Source: an uncultured Panacagrimonas sp. (GTDB taxonomy: Bacteria; Pseudomonadota; Gammaproteobacteria; Nevskiales; Nevskiaceae). From it: a DNA stretch of 6,233 bases. The translations under genes were made by a program, and so were the position numbers. Position 1 is the first letter of the stretch. Every line of letters begins with the position of its first letter. The notes below the pieces were generated by a model. The model saw nothing but the letters and a program-made list of their open reading frames with translations. It was not told the DNA's origin and ran no database searches. The stretch lies in NCBI GenBank assembly GCA_946481265.1, contig CAMLNE010000255.1, forward strand, positions 1 to 6,233, in the 5' to 3' direction. Of this stretch, positions 1 to 6,233 are shown one piece after another.

Positions 1-1605
1 GGAAAGGCCGGCGTCTTCGGCATGGTCATAGGCGGTCAGGCTCTGGTCGTTGCCCACCGTCGTCGAATCGTCGTGCTCGACGCTGGTACTCATGTCCCTC
101 TCGGCATGAATGGTCAGCATCTCGCTGTCCTTCTTGTCCTCGAAGCGGATCTCGTTGAAGGTCTGCGGGTCACCGCCCTTGGTCGAGCGCGTCTTGATGC
201 CGGTCTGCGTGGCGTTCGCAGGCAGGTCGTACGGCGGCATCTGGTCGCCGTTGTAGACACGGCCGGTGATGATCGGCTGGTCCGGGTCCCCCTCGAGGAA
301 GTCGACGATGACCTCCTGCTGGACGCGCGGGATGGCGATCATTCCCCACTTCTTGCCGGCCCAGGGATGCGAGACACGGATCCAGCAGGAGCGGTTCTCC
401 TCCTTGTCCTCGTGCGGCGCGTGGCGATCCCAGTGGAACCGGACCTTCACGCGGCCGAATTCATCGGTATAGATCTCGTCGCCGTCCGGTCCGACCACGG
501 TCGCGGTCTGCGGGCCCTGCACGATCGGCTTGGGCGTGGAGCGGCGCGGGCGGAACTGCTGGCGGCTGGGCACCACCGAAAAGCTGCAGCCGTAGCTGGA
601 GCCTTCGGCGCCCGAGGATTCGTGCGAGCCCAGGGACATCTGGTATGCGGCGCGAGTGACAAGGTACTGGCCGCGATACGTCGGGTGCTGCGTCACGGTC
701 AGCAGTGAGCCGACGCGCAGGGCACGGGCATTGGTGGCCGCGCTGGCGGCCTCGTGACCGGTCTGGAGCTCCTCGAGCCGGATTCCGGCGTACTGCTCGC
801 CGTCCGGCACTTCGACATAGCCACCGGGGTAGTCGAACACCTGCGCCGAGGTGAGCGCCGGCTCCTTCACATTCGGCTTGGTGGCGCGCACCGGCCGCGG
901 CGGCGTCTTGAAGTCGTAGTCCCAGGTCTGCACCTCGCCGCTGCGCATCTCCACCGAGTGCTGCCACTGGTGGATGTACTCCAGGTCCGGCCGCGTGCGC
1001 ACGCTCTCGTGGTAATAGGGCAGGCTGCCGAAGTTCGGCGTTTCCCTGTGCGTGCTGAAAAGATCGACGAGCACCATCTTGTGCTCGGTCTCGGCGTGCT
1101 CGAAGAAATAGTAGATGCCCTCATGCTCCATCAGCCGGCTGATGAAGTTGAAGTCGCTCTCGCGGTACTGGACGCAGTACTCCCATTGGCGGTACTGCCC
1201 GCACAGCTTGTCATCGATCGCGACCAGGTCCGGATAATCCTCGAAGACCTTCCTGAGGATGTCCGGCACCGTCATGTTCTGGAAGATGCGGCAGTCGGTC
1301 TTGCGCGTCAGGATCCAGGGCCAGGGCCGCAGGACGGCCTGGTAGGTGTAGTAGCGCCCGTTGTATGCGCCGGCCGTGAAGCGCGTGACATAGCCGTTGA
1401 AGAAACGCGGTTCGCCGTCCGCCTGTTCGAGCTTGACGGTCATGCCCTGGCCGAGCAGTTCATCCGCCTTGATGTCCGCCCTGGCGCTGAGCAGGTCGAC
1501 CCGGTACTCGAACAGCCGGCCAAGGCTTTCCTCGCCGCTCATGCGCTGGAACAGCAGGTCCGGTCCGAGCGGCGAGACGACTTCCATCAACTGGCTCATT
1601 GGCAT
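1..1605 (-). CDS. vgrG: VgrG/TssI, T6SS spike protein (3'-truncated by window edge)
   Basis: VgrG trimers cap the Hcp tube and form the puncturing spike that carries effectors out of the cell. The frame is open from the ATG at 1605 to the left edge with no stop, giving 535 residues; the C-terminus is outside the window. Residues about 1-345 are the gp27-like phage-hub region, with the hallmark YCVQYRESDFNFISRLMEHE (143-162) followed by GIYYFFEH (163-170). The gp5-like OB-fold follows at about 365-455: DEFGRVKVRFHWDR (381-394), then SCWIRVSHPWAGKKWG (406-421), IPRVQQEVIVDFLEGDPDQP (425-444) and ITGRVYN (446-452). The segment from about 463, with NEIRFEDKKDSEMLTIHAE (484-502), is the entry to the gp5-type beta-helix needle. 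AAGGAG at 1613-1618, 7 bases upstream, supports the start at 1605 over the ATG two codons later. No frameshift was found. Whether it carries a C-terminal effector extension cannot be seen here. It is separated from the methyltransferase gene by 139 bases, so it may have separate transcription. Confidence 0.97.
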   Translation of the reverse strand, partial: MPMSQLMEVVSPLGPDLLFQRMSGEESLGRLFEYRVDLLSARADIKADELLGQGMTVKLEQADGEPRFFNGYVTRFTAGAYNGRYYTYQAVLRPWPWILTRKTDCRIFQNMTVPDILRKVFEDYPDLVAIDDKLCGQYRQWEYCVQYRESDFNFISRLMEHEGIYYFFEHAETEHKMVLVDLFSTHRETPNFGSLPYYHESVRTRPDLEYIHQWQHSVEMRSGEVQTWDYDFKTPPRPVRATKPNVKEPALTSAQVFDYPGGYVEVPDGEQYAGIRLEELQTGHEAASAATNARALRVGSLLTVTQHPTYRGQYLVTRAAYQMSLGSHESSGAEGSSYGCSFSVVPSRQQFRPRRSTPKPIVQGPQTATVVGPDGDEIYTDEFGRVKVRFHWDRHAPHEDKEENRSCWIRVSHPWAGKKWGMIAIPRVQQEVIVDFLEGDPDQPIITGRVYNGDQMPPYDLPANATQTGIKTRSTKGGDPQTFNEIRFEDKKDSEMLTIHAERDMSTSVEHDDSTTVGNDQSLTAYDHAEDAGLS

Positions 1606-1744
1606 GATTTCACTCCTTCAACTTTTTGCGCGTCGCCGGATGCAGCGACCGCGATGGTCTCGCATCCAGGTCCGGCTGCGCCATCCGCATCGGCGCCGCG
1701 CGTGATGTCCGTCGCAGGCCGGTGACGTTTCACTGCGCAGCGCG
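1606..1744. other. Intergenic gap between TPR-methyltransferase and vgrG
   Basis: This is the only sizeable non-coding stretch between the genes (139 bases). It holds the vgrG ribosome-binding site at its vgrG end. Short inverted repeats are present: GTGACG at 1722-1727 with CGTCAC at 1743-1748 (15-base loop, overlapping the methyltransferase stop codon), and GTCGC at 1633-1637 with GCGAC at 1645-1649. Neither is followed by a T-run in the direction of transcription, so I do not call a terminator. No convincing sigma-70 or sigma-54 promoter was recognised. A vgrG promoter or mRNA processing site here is possible but not shown. Confidence 0.5.
1613..1618 (-). promoter_or_regulatory. Ribosome-binding site of vgrG
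   Basis: On the minus strand this reads AAGGAG, a near-perfect Shine-Dalgarno sequence 7 bases before the ATG at 1605. It is much stronger than the sites in front of the two methyltransferase genes, which fits high translation of a structural secreted protein, and it fixes the vgrG start. Confidence 0.85.
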
Positions 1745-3106
1745 TCACGATGGAGTGCGGCGGGCGGCCACCACCAGTCCTGCGACCGGTTGACCCGACT
1801 CCATGCGCAGGGTGTCCTGGCGGATCCGCCGCGTGCCGAATCCCGCCTCGGACAGCATGCGATCGACGTAGGGTTCGCGGTGTGCGTAGCGGCCATGGTG
1901 CTGCAGCAGGTAGTCGGGCGAGGCGTCCGCGTAATGCTCCACGCTGAAGAACAGCCAGCCGCCCGGCTTCAGTGCCGCGCAGGCGGCGCCGACCGCGCCG
2001 TGCAGCGCCCCGAAATAGCAGAGCGTGTCGGCGCTGGCCACCACGTCGAACTCGTCGGGGTGCGCGGCCAGCCAGGAGGTGAGTTCGGCCTCGTGCAGGT
2101 CGTCGTAGATGCCGCGCGTGCGCGCGACCTGGAGCATGCCGGGTGACAGGTCCACGCCGACCAGGCGCGTGCAGGCGGCGCGCACGCGATTGCCGAACAG
2201 CCCGGTGCCGCAACCCGCGTCCAGCAGCGCGAGGTTTGTGCAGGCCGGGCCCAGTGACTCGCGCAGCAGTTCGTCGAGAAGTTGCGGGGCACGGTAGCCG
2301 AGGCTGGCGAGCTTCTGTTCGAAGGACGTCGAGAAGCCATCGAAGACGGTGCGCACATAGCGGTCGTCCGCCCGCTCGGGGGCCTCGCTGCCACCGCAGG
2401 CGGCGAGCAGGTGACGCGCACGCACGTCGTCCGGGTCACGCGCGAGCATCGCGCGATATTCGTCCGCCGCCTTCTCGAACCAGCCCAGGCGGCATAGCGC
2501 GTGGCCCAGCGCGGCACGCAGCTCGCGTGCCTCCGGCTTGATGCCGATGGCGCGCTTGTAGTGCTCGACCGCTTCCTCGAGCCGGCCCTGGGACAGCAGC
2601 GCGTTGCCCAGGCCGCAGTGGATGGTGGACTGGCATTCGACGCCGGTGGCGGCAGGGTCGAGCTGCAGCGCTTCGCGCAGCAGCTTTTCCGATTCACTGG
2701 CGCGGCCAAGCGCGCGATACAGGCGCGCGAGCGTGACGCGCGGCGGTATCGCCTTGGGCGTGAGGATCAGCGCACGTTTGAGGCTGCGTTCGGCGGCCGA
2801 GTAGTCGCGCTGATCGAGCTGCATGATCGCGAGATTGGCGTAGGCGTCGGCATAGTCGGGCGCGTACTTCAGGGCCTCCTGGACATCGCGGATGCCAGCC
2901 TCGACATCGCCGCATTGGTACTTCAGGAGTCCCTGGAAATGCCAGGCGTCGGCATGGCGGGGCGCCACGGCCAGTACGCGCTCGTAGATCGCGCGCGCCT
3001 GTTCCAGCTTGCCGGCCTGGTGCAGTCCGATCGCCTCGCGCGTGTCCGCCACCGCCCGCGTGATCGCGATGTCCTTCGCGGTCGGCCGGGCCTGGCGACG
3101 GGACAT
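1745..3106 (-). CDS. TPR-repeat SAM-dependent methyltransferase, second of a tandem pair
   Basis: A 453-residue paralogue of the gene just upstream with the same architecture and no visible signal peptide. About six TPR-like units fill residues 16-228; the best are 53-85, 87-119 and 161-193 (GNALLSQGRLEEAVEHYKRA). The linker has YVRTVFDGFSTSFEQKL and YRAPQLL (250-277), matching the paralogue. The methyltransferase domain shows motif I LLDAGCGTGLFG (294-305), GVDLSPGML (317-325), DVVASADTLCYFGAL (354-368), motif III LKPGGWLFFSVE (379-390), then GRYAHREPYVDRMLSEAGF (405-423). My ungapped hand alignment of residues 294-450 with the paralogue gives about 87 identities in 157 positions. The TPR half aligns far less well. 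The start ATG lies 2 bases after the upstream stop, with a GGAG at 3116-3119 giving a 9-base spacing, which indicates tight translational linkage. The acidic residue after strand 2 and the motif I glycines are present, so it looks catalytically competent. Acceptor substrate unknown. Confidence 0.91.
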   Translation of the reverse strand: MSRRQARPTAKDIAITRAVADTREAIGLHQAGKLEQARAIYERVLAVAPRHADAWHFQGLLKYQCGDVEAGIRDVQEALKYAPDYADAYANLAIMQLDQRDYSAAERSLKRALILTPKAIPPRVTLARLYRALGRASESEKLLREALQLDPAATGVECQSTIHCGLGNALLSQGRLEEAVEHYKRAIGIKPEARELRAALGHALCRLGWFEKAADEYRAMLARDPDDVRARHLLAACGGSEAPERADDRYVRTVFDGFSTSFEQKLASLGYRAPQLLDELLRESLGPACTNLALLDAGCGTGLFGNRVRAACTRLVGVDLSPGMLQVARTRGIYDDLHEAELTSWLAAHPDEFDVVASADTLCYFGALHGAVGAACAALKPGGWLFFSVEHYADASPDYLLQHHGRYAHREPYVDRMLSEAGFGTRRIRQDTLRMESGQPVAGLVVAARRTPS

Positions 3107-3108
3107 GC

Positions 3109-4461
3109 TCAGGCGCTCCGCCGCGCCGCGCAGATCAGTCCGGCGACGGGCTTTTTCAGTTCGCTGCGCAGGACGCCGCTTTCGATCACGCGTTGCGCGA
3201 ATCCGGCCTCGCGCAGGACCTGCTCGACGTAGTCACGGCGGTGCGCGTAGCGACCGCTGACCTTGAGCTCATGGCCCTGTTCCTGCTCACCGCCATCCTC
3301 GACCGAGAAGATCAGCCAGCCACCGGGACGCAGGCTGCCGTGGGCAGCCCTGGCCACAGCATCCAGGGCGCCGAAATAGCACAGCGTGTCGACGCAGGTG
3401 ATGACGTCGTAGCGGTCGTGGAGCGATTCCAGATGCGCGGTCAGCTCGGCGTGGGCCAGCTCGTCGTAGATCCCGAGTGCGCGTGCCTTGTCGAGCATCC
3501 CGGCCGACAGGTCGACCCCGTCCAGGCGCCGGACCCGCGTGCGAACCTGCTTGCCGAGCAGGCCGGTACCGCAGCCCGCGTCGAGCAGATCGATATCGGT
3601 GGGCAGGCCGGGCAGGCGGCCGAGCAGGTCCGCGACCAGTTCCGGTGCGCGGTATTTCAGGGTCGCCAGCTTGCTGTCGAAGTTCTTGGAGAAGGAATCG
3701 AACATCTGGCTGACGACCTGGTCCTGCGTTCGACCCGGGATCGGCGCGCCGCCGTAGGCGGCCAGCATGTGTGCGAGCTCGGGGCTGTCGGGATCCACCT
3801 GGAGCAGGGAATGGATATGGTCGCGTGCCTCCTCGAGCTTGCCCTCGACGGCCAGGCCGTACGCCATGCGGGCACGGATCAGGGCCAGGTCGCTGGAGGT
3901 GTACGCGGCCTGCAGATGGGCCCTGGCCTCCTCCGGACGTCCCAGCAGGCGCAGCAGTCCGGCCAGCGCGTGGCGGACCAGGGGATCCTGCGGCGCCTCG
4001 TCCTGCAAGGCGTCGAGCATGCCCAGCGCCTCCGCCAGCTTGCCCTGCGTGCGCATCAGGATCGCCAGGTTCACGCGCGGCGACACCGGCTCGGGATCGA
4101 GCTCGATGGCCCGGCGCAGGTGCCGCTCGGCGCCGTCGAAATCGCCCGTCTTGCTGAGCATCAGGCCGAGATTGGCGTGCGCGTCGTGGTAGTCCGGCGC
4201 CAGCTCGATGCATTTGCGCAGGGCGGCGATCGCGTCCGGCCGGATGTCGATCTGGAACAGCAGCACGCCGTAGAAATTGAGCGCGTCAGGATGCTCCGGC
4301 GCCCCGGCCAGGATGCGTTCGTAGAGCGCGCGCGACTCCGCGAAGCGGCCGTCCCGATGCCACAGACGGGCCACCGCCAGCATGTCGTCCACCGTTGCGT
4401 CGGGCGCAAGCGCCGGCCTCACATGAGCGAGGGCGGCATCCAGTTGTTCGCTGGTAACCAT
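3109..4461 (-). CDS. TPR-repeat SAM-dependent methyltransferase, first of a tandem pair
   Basis: A 450-residue protein resembling predicted TPR-containing methyltransferases (COG4976-like). No signal peptide or membrane segment is seen, so it is probably cytoplasmic. Residues about 22-228 hold around six TPR-like helical hairpins; the clearest are at 59-91 and 93-126, each ending in a LAPD or LDPE type turn. A linker, MFDSFSKNFDSKL then YRAPEL (253-275), joins them to a class I Rossmann methyltransferase domain: SAM-binding motif I LLDAGCGTGLLG (292-303), acidic strand-2 GVDLSAGML (315-323), DVITCVDTLCYFGAL (352-366), and motif III LRPGGWLIFSVE (377-388). The ATG at 4461 is preferred because an in-frame ATG at 4518 would overlap the clpV end by 29 bases and add a low-complexity Ser/Arg/Pro leader; only a weak GGA stands upstream of 4461. 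The gene sits 28 bases after clpV and 2 bases before its paralogue, so it is likely in the clpV operon. Substrate is unknown; a T6SS or effector-related protein is inference from context only. Confidence 0.9.
   Translation of the reverse strand: MVTSEQLDAALAHVRPALAPDATVDDMLAVARLWHRDGRFAESRALYERILAGAPEHPDALNFYGVLLFQIDIRPDAIAALRKCIELAPDYHDAHANLGLMLSKTGDFDGAERHLRRAIELDPEPVSPRVNLAILMRTQGKLAEALGMLDALQDEAPQDPLVRHALAGLLRLLGRPEEARAHLQAAYTSSDLALIRARMAYGLAVEGKLEEARDHIHSLLQVDPDSPELAHMLAAYGGAPIPGRTQDQVVSQMFDSFSKNFDSKLATLKYRAPELVADLLGRLPGLPTDIDLLDAGCGTGLLGKQVRTRVRRLDGVDLSAGMLDKARALGIYDELAHAELTAHLESLHDRYDVITCVDTLCYFGALDAVARAAHGSLRPGGWLIFSVEDGGEQEQGHELKVSGRYAHRRDYVEQVLREAGFAQRVIESGVLRSELKKPVAGLICAARRSA
3116..3119 (-). 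promoter_or_regulatory. Probable ribosome-binding site of the second TPR-methyltransferase
   Basis: GGAG on the minus strand, inside the last codons of the upstream methyltransferase gene and 9 bases before the ATG at 3106. Together with the 2-base gap between stop and start it suggests translational coupling of the pair. Confidence 0.55.
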
Positions 4462-4489
4462 GGGCGACGGTCCGGATACGCGACGGCGC

Positions 4490-6233
4490 TCAGTCGAAGC
4501 GGTAGGCGAACTGCCCATCGGACACGCCGACCTGCACCTTTGGAATCGGCTTGCCTTCCATCATGCGGTTGAGGAACTCGCGCGAGATGTCCGGCAGCAT
4601 CGTGTTGGTCAGGATCGCGTCGATCATGCGGCCGCCCGATTCGCTCTCGGTGCAGCGCGACACGACCAGCTTGACCACGTCCTCGTCGTAGTCGAACGGG
4701 ATCTTGTAGCGGGCTTCGACGCGCTTCTTGATGCGGTTGAGCTGCAGCTTGACGATCTCGCCGAGCATCTCGTCGGACAGGGGGTAGTAGGGGATCGTCA
4801 CCAGGCGCCCGAGCAGCGCCGGGGGAAAGACCTTGAGCAGCGGTTCGCGCAGCGCCTTGGCCATGCCTTCGGGATCCGGCATCAGTTCCGGGTCCCTGCA
4901 CATGCCGGCGATCATGTCGGTGCCGGCATTGGTCGTCAGCAGGATCAGCGTGTTCTTGAAGTCGATCAGGCGACCTTCGCCGTCCTCCATCATTCCCTTG
5001 TCGAACACCTGGAAGAAGATCTCGTGCACGTCCGGGTGCGCCTTCTCCACCTCGTCCAGCAGCACCACGGAGTAGGGCTTGCGCCGCACCGCCTCGGTCA
5101 GCACGCCACCCTCGCCGTAGCCGACGTAACCCGGAGGCGCGCCCTTGAGCGAGGAGACCGTGTGCGCCTCCTGGTACTCGCTCATGTTGATGATGATCAT
5201 GTTCTGCTCACCGCCGTACAGCGCCTCGGCGAGTGCGATCGCGGTCTCGGTCTTGCCCACGCCCGAGGTGCCGGCCAGCATGAACACGCCGATCGGCTTC
5301 TGCGGGTTGTCCAGCCCGGCGCGCGAGGTCTGGATGCGCTTGGAGATCATCTCCATCGCGTGATCCTGACCGATCACGCGCTTGGCCAGCAGCTGCGGCA
5401 GCTTGAGGATGGTGTCGATCTCGTTGCGCGCCATGCGGCCGACCGGGATGCCGGTCCAGTCGCCGACCACGCTGGCCACCGCCTGGTAGTCGACGGTGGG
5501 CAGCATCAGCGGTGACTCGCCCTGCAGCTCGGTGAGCTTGTGCTGCACGTCCTTGAGCCGGGCCAGCGCTTCGCTGCGCTCGGCCTCGGTCAGTGGCACC
5601 TGCTCGGGCTTCACGTCGGCCGCCGGCGCCGGCGCCTGGGCCTCCAATTCGAGCTTGCTGCCGGTGCCCTCGACCGGGTTGCCGCCGCGGCGCAGCTGCG
5701 CGCGCAGGTCGAGCAGCTCGGTGACCAGCGCCTTTTCCTCCTCCCAGCGCTTCTCGAGCTCGACCAGGCGGGTCTTGGCCGCCTCGAGCTGCTCGGTGGC
5801 CAGCGACTTGCGCTCGGCCACGTCGATGCCGATGGCCTCCTCGCGGCCGATGATGCCGAGCTCGGTGTCGAGCGAGTCGATGTGCTTGCGCGTGTCATCC
5901 ACTTCCGGCGGCGTCGCATGCAGGCTGACCGCCACGCGCGCACAGGCGGTGTCGATCAGGCTGACCGACTTGTCGGGCAGCTGGCGTGCCGGGATGTAGC
6001 GGCTGGAGAGCTTGACCGCGGCCTCAAGCGCCTCGTCGAGGATCTGCACCTTGTGGTGCTTTTCCATGGTGCTGGCGACGCCGCGCATCATCAGCACGGC
6101 CTTCTTCTCGTCCGGCTCGTCCACCGTGACGCTCTGGAAGCGGCGGGTGAGGGCGGGGTCCTTCTCGATGTGCTTCTTGTATTCCGCGAACGTCGTTGCG
6201 CCGACCGTGCGCAGGGTGCCGCGTGCCAGGGCA
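4490..6233 (-). CDS. tssH: ClpV/TssH, T6SS sheath-recycling AAA+ ATPase (5'-truncated by window edge)
   Basis: Hexameric cytoplasmic ClpB-family unfoldase that, in the T6SS, extracts TssB/TssC subunits from the contracted sheath for reuse. The frame is open to the right edge, so 580 C-terminal residues are visible and the N-domain and first Walker motifs are missing. Seen, in fragment numbering: end of the first AAA+ domain with sensor-1-like RTVGATTFAEYKK (8-20) and arginine pair TRRFQ (29-33); a helical middle domain at about 105-245 containing a Pro/Ala-rich linker; the segment GDWTGIPVGRM (257-267) entering the second AAA+ domain; Walker A GTSGVGKTE (321-329); Walker B VVLLDEVEKAH (389-399); pore-loop region PPGYVGYGEGG (366-376); sensor 1 LLTTNAGTD (431-439); arginine finger near LLGRL (R476); sensor 2 ESGGRMID (531-538). 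The AAA+ motifs look intact. A GTG at 6122-6124 is internal, because homologous sequence continues upstream. The T6SS assignment rather than ClpB rests on the overall D2 sequence and the downstream vgrG. Stop TGA lies 28 bases before the next gene. Confidence 0.96.
   Translation of the reverse strand, partial: ALARGTLRTVGATTFAEYKKHIEKDPALTRRFQSVTVDEPDEKKAVLMMRGVASTMEKHHKVQILDEALEAAVKLSSRYIPARQLPDKSVSLIDTACARVAVSLHATPPEVDDTRKHIDSLDTELGIIGREEAIGIDVAERKSLATEQLEAAKTRLVELEKRWEEEKALVTELLDLRAQLRRGGNPVEGTGSKLELEAQAPAPAADVKPEQVPLTEAERSEALARLKDVQHKLTELQGESPLMLPTVDYQAVASVVGDWTGIPVGRMARNEIDTILKLPQLLAKRVIGQDHAMEMISKRIQTSRAGLDNPQKPIGVFMLAGTSGVGKTETAIALAEALYGGEQNMIIINMSEYQEAHTVSSLKGAPPGYVGYGEGGVLTEAVRRKPYSVVLLDEVEKAHPDVHEIFFQVFDKGMMEDGEGRLIDFKNTLILLTTNAGTDMIAGMCRDPELMPDPEGMAKALREPLLKVFPPALLGRLVTIPYYPLSDEMLGEIVKLQLNRIKKRVEARYKIPFDYDEDVVKLVVSRCTESESGGRMIDAILTNTMLPDISREFLNRMMEGKPIPKVQVGVSDGQFAYRFD

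Follow-up and report, generated by a model that had tools for sequence, protein, structure and literature searches.

Two adjacent genes in a type VI secretion system (T6SS) locus encode TPR-methyltransferases with intact S-adenosylmethionine (SAM) motifs, and their close relatives recur as T6SS accessories. We consider it quite plausible, if short of probable, that the two proteins, MTa and MTb, methylate Hcp, VgrG, PAAR or cargo that their TPR arms would recruit in the cytosol before loading. The proposal builds on the domain make-up and modelled fold, the unbroken motif columns, recurrence beside clpV, PAAR, vgrG or hcp genes in several orders, the tandem copies and a TPR half that diverges faster than the catalytic half.

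Two TPR-methyltransferases between clpV and vgrG

The window, the whole 6,233-nt stretch of uncultured Panacagrimonas sp. DNA analysed here, reads clpV-MTa-MTb-vgrG on the minus strand. The C-terminal part of clpV/tssH (4490..6232, minus strand; 5' end beyond the window) matches TIGR03345 over model positions 311-850 of 852 with 830 bits, below the cut-off of 884.95 in a gene cut by the window edge. MTa (450 aa; 3109..4461, minus strand; Pfam TPR plus Methyltransf_23/12/11) and MTb (453 aa; 1745..3106, minus strand) lead to the N-terminal 535 aa of vgrG/tssI (1..1605, minus strand; 3' end beyond the window), which matches TIGR03361 with 628 bits (cut-off 186) and also PF05954, PF04717 and PF22178. 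These neighbours confirm the original prediction that the pair lies between clpV and vgrG, and its tight linkage to clpV holds as well: 28 bp separate the clpV stop from the MTa ATG in the sequence, 2 bp the MTa stop from the MTb ATG and 139 bp the MTb stop from the vgrG ATG. The last gap (1606..1744, minus strand) carries AAGGAG 7 nt ahead of the vgrG ATG. An alternative in-frame ATG at 4518 would lengthen MTa to 469 aa and overlap clpV. In a consensus scan of 1400..4700 we found no sigma-70-like promoter and a single terminator-like site, on the plus strand, weak evidence compatible with one operon.

Both proteins join a TPR array to a methyltransferase. Pfam TPR families and Methyltransf_11/12/23/25 score above cut-off in each, and AlphaFold2 models (pLDDT 94, pTM 0.82 for MTa; pLDDT 95, pTM 0.88 for MTb) place about six TPR helix pairs before a single Rossmann-type methyltransferase domain. 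Two intact open reading frames with some six TPR units and a class I SAM methyltransferase domain each are what had been described from the letters of the sequence. Helix pairs in the models set the TPR superhelix at residues 24-235 of MTa (3757..4392, minus strand) and 10-236 of MTb (2399..3079, minus strand). SAM-binding motif I, DAGCGTGL, occupies residues 294-301 of MTa (3559..3582, minus strand) and 296-303 of MTb (2198..2221, minus strand), in conserved columns. With 44% identity over 423 aligned columns, MTa and MTb are tandem paralogues.

The SAM-motif columns are conserved across the copies compared. In a 60-row set, from which near-identical rows were removed and in which 37 rows are Competibacter-order copies included regardless of a ClpV neighbour, MTb D296, G298, C299, G300, T301 and G302 are identical in 60/60 rows, and 18 of the 20 listed motif columns are identical across all 60 copies. 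The listed columns were picked because they were already invariant in an earlier alignment, and they are nearly invariant too in relatives chosen without regard to T6SS; what their conservation shows is thus an enzyme and not a link to T6SS. The TPR half diverges faster than the catalytic half: the methyltransferase half is the more alike in 37 of 45 and in 628 of 666 pairs, and MTa and MTb share 52% in the methyltransferase half and 34% in the TPR half.

MTa and MTb resemble the predicted TPR-repeat methyltransferases, a family that we take to be COG4976 and whose members carry an N-terminal TPR array and a C-terminal class I SAM methyltransferase in about 450 aa. Pfam and AlphaFold2 place the array in both proteins, motif I lies in the C-terminal methyltransferase, and source records annotate homologues as 'predicted TPR repeat methyltransferase'. 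The family is large, with 2,592, 6,310 and 6,181 matches, each among 7,997 candidates scored. No core Tss family (TssA-M) was matched, the best 25 Pfam/NCBIfam families comprising only TPR, methyltransferase and other repeats. CheR methyltransferases with TPR domains (FrzF, WspC) pair TPR with a protein methyltransferase in the opposite domain order; they also differ from MTa and MTb in operon context, and CheR is absent among the best 25 Pfam families for either protein. The MADS defence methyltransferase mad2 was matched over part of its length, at 44 and 32 bits, for a model with no curated cut-off, and its partner genes are absent from the short 6.2-kb window.

Relatives in T6SS loci and beyond

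Close relatives are enriched near T6SS genes. The original prediction had named a lack of such enrichment among homologues as refuting it; close relatives show the enrichment and the family at large does not. Among Lysobacterales, matches occur in 11 of 39 ClpV genomes versus 4 of 161 others (p = 3.3e-6), the 15 genomes being those with a match at E<=1e-60 and the 11 those with ClpV above cut-off. In the Competibacter order, the methyltransferase gene lies just downstream of clpV on the same strand, at 46-5,499 bp, in 19 of the 21 genomes with both genes. The T6SS interpretation is therefore partly supported; the suggested functions, methylation of a T6SS component or VgrG loading by the TPR part, stay conditional.

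Lysobacterales loci share a fixed core. All ten T6SS loci have the order PAAR-methyltransferase-VgrG on one strand inside the cluster, with 69-374 bp between the matched ends of PAAR and methyltransferase (10/10) and, likewise between matched ends, 95-335 bp from methyltransferase to VgrG in nine loci and 2,095 bp in one. clpV lies 1.9-12.3 kb from the methyltransferase in nine loci, with variable genes between, and on another contig in the tenth. For most genes in the stretch from clpV to PAAR, none of nine other loci has a counterpart, and three at most do, whereas PAAR, methyltransferase and VgrG recur; the methyltransferase thus behaves as machinery and not as exchangeable cargo. Even so, of 41 Lysobacterales ClpV loci only 9 have the methyltransferase nearby, the remaining 32, some in short stretches, showing no intact copy. 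Six of these 32 are the same cluster type (L216, L219-L222 and L211): PAAR sits directly beside VgrG in L216, neither PAAR nor methyltransferase was found with the queries used in L219-L222, and in L211 PAAR and VgrG flank a remnant of TPR sequence.

Competibacter-order loci are mostly tandem. The copies after clpV usually come in series, the gap from clpV is 46 bp in G1407 and G1404, and Plasticicumulans lactativorans (G1412) resembles the window, reading clpV-methyltransferase-(240-aa ORF)-methyltransferase-vgrG. In this order vgrG adjoins the methyltransferase only in G1328, G1411 and G1412.

The family as a whole has no T6SS link. A Pseudomonadota survey at E<=1e-15 gave matches in 109 genomes; of 30 inspected (19 + 11), only two carry the gene in a T6SS cluster (G452, G665), a count that excludes a ClpV-like match at 41% in G589 (L073). 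Most inspected members thus lie away from T6SS genes, unlike the window pair. Neighbourhood reading in one 21-genome set left out G1148 and G1162. G001 was rejected as kin of the window: the DNA in common is a Clp-ATPase only, 67-72% identical, in proteins of ClpB/ClpC type by eye, so its relatives were left out, as was its phylum, where a search at E<=1e-20 gave a match in 1 of 396 genomes.

Further T6SS-linked cases lie on a Thiodictyon plasmid, which has VgrG/PAAR, and in a MAG of the Hyphomicrobiales. The plasmid survey yielded 143 records with a match, of which four were inspected: besides Thiodictyon, those of A. brasilense (an unannotated record, searched by tblastn only), A. ramasamyi and S. 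meliloti, where T6SS genes were not found. Another plasmid search set aside ten matches with less than 80% coverage (26-34%; ovoA being the annotation of six). Away from T6SS clusters, 4 of the 64 searched loci (G698, G855, G1012, G1014) have a gene with an Hcp domain (PF05638) no more than about 1 kb from the methyltransferase, G698 being additional to the two Pseudomonadota cluster cases; three of the four form one tree group. PAAR is also the neighbour of a second methyltransferase family, one that lacks TPRs, in 5/5 loci inspected. The TPR-methyltransferase gene recurs in T6SS clusters of several lineages and counts by position as a cluster-linked accessory gene.

T6SS-linked proteins also group on a tree of the family. 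With rows shorter than 380 aa left out, 15 rows labelled 'unknown' (on short contigs, or with no context for the protein) and labels fixed before the Hcp neighbours were found, the T6SS label changes 9 times, against a shuffled mean of 19.2, with 0 of 500 shuffles as low. Distance correlations given TssK are 0.46 for Fha, 0.48 for PAAR and 0.49 for VgrG; as Fha scores as high as PAAR and VgrG, they point to no single partner.

Candidate substrates and competing roles

TPR-guided methylation of a secreted component would fit this distribution. The TPR arm would recruit cargo or one of the tube and spike proteins, Hcp, VgrG or PAAR, in the cytosol, and the methyltransferase domain would methylate this presumed protein substrate before loading or firing. 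O-GlcNAc transferase/SPINDLY, among the top Foldseek rows, likewise sets a TPR superhelix ahead of a transferase, there a glycosyltransferase and not a methyltransferase, the likeness being confined to the TPR half; by analogy with superhelix guidance in O-GlcNAc transferase, the TPR half may select what is modified, and tandem copies may act on different targets or sites. A broader version is more tentative: two methyltransferase families, one TPR-guided and one TPR-less, may have been recruited in some bacteria to the clpV/PAAR/VgrG/Hcp slot, methylating the Hcp tube or PAAR-VgrG spike before firing, with tandem copies reflecting several targets.

Methylation of an ACP-bound acyl group, a glycan or a small molecule, with T6SS adjacency arising as two gene sets become neighbours, is the strongest alternative, and we think it unlikely. 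An ACP-like gene (PF00550) comes next after the methyltransferase or its array in six of the eight Competibacter-order genomes examined, followed in G1402 (L261) by exosortase-A-associated hydrolases 2 and 1; a homologue lies within a flagellin island of Azospirillum ramasamyi, and structure comparison also matches the methyltransferase fold to small-molecule methyltransferases. BioC, which methylates malonyl-ACP, is matched only weakly in NCBIfam, at 40.4 and 36.8 bits for the two proteins against a TIGR02072 cut-off of 184.95. Against this alternative, the window has no ACP gene between the methyltransferases and vgrG, and T6SS neighbours recur with differing flanks in several orders.

Adaptor genes typically neighbour vgrG, and T6SS adaptors and chaperones include DUF4123 (Tap/TEC), DUF1795 (Eag) and DUF2169 proteins. 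MTa and MTb share their placement, beside vgrG or PAAR in the window and in 10/10 Lysobacterales loci, near variable genes. The TPR half could accordingly load cargo onto VgrG/PAAR, methyl transfer being secondary or lost; TPR folds bind peptides, and variable genes lie on the far side of PAAR. We judge this decidedly improbable. Adaptors have other domains, and DUF4123, DUF1795 and DUF2169 (the last described as an adaptor/chaperone in the available portion of PMC10215855) are absent among the best 25 of 26 Pfam families for each protein. MTa and MTb instead carry an enzymatic domain, better conserved than the TPR half, whose invariant SAM-motif columns speak for a working enzyme rather than an adaptor alone; the sole TPR-only form met is the short L211 remnant. 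At a vgrG locus of Acinetobacter baumannii, URO-D/CIMS-like predicted chaperones have a domain associated with methyltransferases, of homocysteine-methyltransferase type, and TPR is not named in the available portion of that source (PMC6833914).

Regulation of T6SS assembly, by methylation of sheath, ATPase or signalling proteins (TssB/C, ClpV, Fha, PpkA), is a shade less probable again. It would suit the short distances after clpV in the window, G1407 and G1404, a clpV linkage that holds even with vgrG elsewhere, and the Fha plus kinase or phosphatase genes in several methyltransferase-bearing clusters; the distant clpV and constant PAAR neighbour of Lysobacterales loci speak against it. That the methyltransferase is itself a secreted effector is very improbable: it sits between PAAR and vgrG near variable genes, and a methyltransferase-like effector, Tfe7, is proposed in the available portion of PMC7970981, but the methyltransferase persists in loci that do not share their variable genes and has been duplicated where it stands. 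In the window no small immunity-like gene separates the pair from the flanking genes, and most of the relatives inspected lie away from secretion genes.

Methylation of tube, spike or cargo proteins would add a layer to T6SS biology. T6SS control has been described via phosphorylation (PpkA/PppA/Fha), adaptors and ClpV recycling. We found no report in the open-licence literature of a T6SS role for predicted TPR-repeat methyltransferases or of a TPR-methyltransferase in a T6SS cluster, and the available portions of PMC12388028, PMC10215855, PMC7970981, PMC5561584, PMC6833914 and PMC8233155 describe no such gene. If the proposal is correct, a conserved in-cluster methyltransferase would bring a second covalent modification into T6SS control, one that might license tube and spike proteins for loading or check their quality, and would place a large, little-studied family of methyltransferases in a biological context.

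A paired methyltransferase between clpV and vgrG

Gene order, Pfam matches and AlphaFold2 models confirmed the original prediction that two proteins joining TPRs to a class I methyltransferase lie between clpV and vgrG. On the minus strand, clpV (5' end cut) is followed by MTa (4461..3109, 450 aa), MTb (3106..1745, 453 aa) and vgrG (3' end cut), with intergenic gaps of 28, 2 and 139 bp. MTa and MTb each carry about six TPRs and a class I SAM methyltransferase domain, and are 44% identical in pairwise alignment. Among named sequences, MTb is closest to Panacagrimonas proteins: it shares 63% identity with one from a MAG and 55% with one from P. perspica, which makes a Nevskiales-like host likely.

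On the tree of homologues, the window's MTa (WIN_MTa) clusters with P0091 and P0045 and its MTb (WIN_MTb) with P0014 and P0013; P0014 and P0091 both come from P. perspica. Because each copy thus groups with a P. perspica copy, the duplication predates the lineage split, with both copies retained. In the array of genome G1104, two copies are sisters on the tree and mark a separate duplication. T6SS-linked rows cluster on the 76-row tree: the label needs 9 changes, where shuffled labels averaged 19.2 and none of 500 shuffles went as low, and the ten Lysobacterales T6SS copies form one clade (100/100).

T6SS linkage in close and distant relatives

Enrichment of homologues near T6SS loci, which the original prediction named as one check, holds for close relatives and not for the family as a whole. 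Matches at E ≤ 1e-15 occurred in 109 of 398 Pseudomonadota genomes, and only 2 of 30 inspected lay in T6SS clusters, no more than chance. T6SS position exceeds chance in close relatives: among Lysobacterales (the order of G665), ClpV passed the cut-off in 11 of 15 genomes with an E ≤ 1e-60 match, versus 39 of 200 overall (Fisher p = 3.3e-6). Two of the remaining four (G855, G1012) have an Hcp-domain neighbour.

We read the neighbourhoods of all 30 Lysobacterales matches (E ≤ 1e-20, 30 of 200 genomes). T6SS clusters that include core genes house ten of them (L071, L117-L122, L124, L126, L127); in an eleventh locus, L123, a VipB-domain protein and a PAAR lie nearby. Three (G855, G1012, G1014) have an Hcp-domain gene and no other T6SS genes, and 16, some on short contigs, have neither cluster nor Hcp-domain gene. 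Viewed from the T6SS side, the methyltransferase is a minority feature in this order, lying 1.9-12.3 kb from ClpV in 9 of 41 loci over the cut-off. In G1000 a further cluster is broken up between contigs; the rest of the ClpV loci, all read, lacked an intact copy in the stretches fetched.

Where present, the gene belongs to the constant part of the Lysobacterales locus. PAAR, methyltransferase and VgrG follow on one strand in 10 of 10 T6SS loci, with DUF6931, Fha, TssK, TssL and TssM coming next where the stretch extends that far. The clpV-PAAR interval holds genes mostly lacking counterparts in the other nine loci, as would be expected of effector/immunity cargo. Six clusters of the same type, assigned by DUF6931-Fha-TssK order, lack an intact copy (L216, L219-L222, L211), so the gene can be lost; L211 (G1020) retains a TPR remnant of about 110 aa, without methyltransferase domain, between PAAR and vgrG (8637-8969).

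A DUF6931 protein of unassigned function recurs between vgrG and fha (L120:12729-13301, equivalent positions of further Lysobacterales loci, and L069:393-941). A large Ser/Thr kinase with C-terminal TPRs adjoins PAAR-MT in two Lysobacterales loci (L119:11277-14453, L121:10864-13359). Proteins of 451-459 aa with a VipB sheath domain match, encoded near the TPR-methyltransferase (L123:6959-8338; L182:5650-7002, with a weak VipA match too), look like a sheath-protein fusion or relic.

The order of G1228, which includes Plasticicumulans lactativorans (G1412), shows the same association. Among 40 Competibacter-order genomes, 25 have the methyltransferase (E ≤ 1e-50), 28 have ClpV over the cut-off and the two occur together in 21 (Fisher p = 0.017). 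Of these, 19 carry the methyltransferase 46-5,499 bp after clpV, sharing its contig and strand; the remaining two have the pair on separate contigs. By manual count, 19 of 25 carry two or three copies at most 1.7 kb apart. The order clpV-MT-(240-aa ORF)-MT-vgrG occurs in P. lactativorans, one of only three genomes of the order in which vgrG adjoins the methyltransferase (with G1328 and G1411). A variable gene between clpV and the methyltransferase (L182:12176-13480, L187:13118-14287), whose XopAP-family similarity is far below cut-off, is possible T6SS cargo.

A class-level search (E ≤ 1e-40, 21 of 369 genomes) found T6SS linkage in 5 of 19 genomes inspected: G1196 (two copies), G1104 (three copies after clpV), G1228, G1328 and G665. 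A Hyphomicrobiales MAG has the gene within a T6SS cluster, flanked by Ser/Thr kinase and M23 peptidase genes.

Tube, spike and carrier-protein neighbours

Rechecking 64 loci first set down as T6SS-unlinked revealed a PF05638 (Hcp) gene near the methyltransferase in four. In G698, one more of the 30 inspected Pseudomonadota matches, it lies directly before on the same strand, with 75 bp from the Hcp stop to the start of the methyltransferase match (L072:8791-9363). It is divergent at 61 bp in G855 (L129:8549-9130), about 0.85 kb upstream and cut by the contig end in G1012 (L125:1-381), and about 0.9 kb upstream in G1014 (L132:11684-12058). The latter three and G988 form one tree group (96/81). 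By eye, the Hcp-domain proteins of G855 and G1014 have leader-like N termini and may therefore differ from standard T6SS tube proteins. On the strength of the Hcp neighbours we extended the candidate substrate, previously the spike alone, to include the tube, and slightly raised our confidence in the best explanation.

An ACP-linked substrate is a less likely rival reading. An ACP-like gene comes next in 6 of 8 Competibacter-order genomes with the downstream side examined, directly after the methyltransferase or array (L258:2889-3227, L183:15919-16248, L185:9009-9329, L259:2989-3282, L260:1104-1445, L261:10407-10781). This arrangement is the strongest argument against tying the enzymes to the spike alone. 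In one genome (L261), exosortase-A-associated hydrolases 2, then 1, follow.

Conserved catalytic motifs and a proposed role

The methyltransferase half is the better conserved. It exceeds the TPR half in 37 of 45 Lysobacterales pairs (68% versus 61%) and 628 of 666 Competibacter-order pairs (60% versus 46%); between MTa and MTb the values are 52% and 34%. All 60 copies agree in 18 of 20 listed columns, 59 of them at position 407 and 54 at position 340; every column but 340 had been picked for its earlier invariance. In 93 relatives picked regardless of T6SS linkage, most of these columns likewise show little or no variation. The pattern fits an active enzyme whose recognition arm is diversifying.

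A second methyltransferase family occupies the same slot. On a Thiodictyon plasmid, VgrG is accompanied, divergently, by PAAR, another class I methyltransferase (L064:13804-14937) and the TPR-methyltransferase; this neighbour has no TPR matches and resembles the TPR-methyltransferase only in motif I. The TPR-less family adjoins PAAR in 5 of 5 loci looked at. These include a more distant relative (27% identity) in G852 (L123:685-1683) and the two Hyphomicrobiales-order genomes, of 249, that carry the family (L265:1501-2559, L266:1501-2517); both have clpV-PAAR-MT of this type, one with Hcp next. In Aureimonas sp. AU20 it abuts PAAR without a gap in a T6SS cluster with clpV (L264:8001-9080); that protein also has a Trm112p match. 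With two distinct methyltransferases in one slot, methylation is likelier than a TPR scaffold to be its selected function.

TPR-methyltransferases and T6SS accessory genes are each already known; the accessible parts of the open-licence literature yielded no description of the two together. Comparison with the nearest solved structures did not decide the substrate, and a distance-matrix correlation test singled out no specific partner. Domain anatomy, gene position and motif conservation are observed directly; what we infer is the substrate's class, its identity and the timing of its methylation. Our best explanation, held tentatively and with slightly less than even confidence, is that these enzymes methylate a tube or spike protein, or cargo, before loading. 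The TPR arm would recruit such a protein in the cytosol, and the methyltransferase domain would then modify it ahead of its loading.
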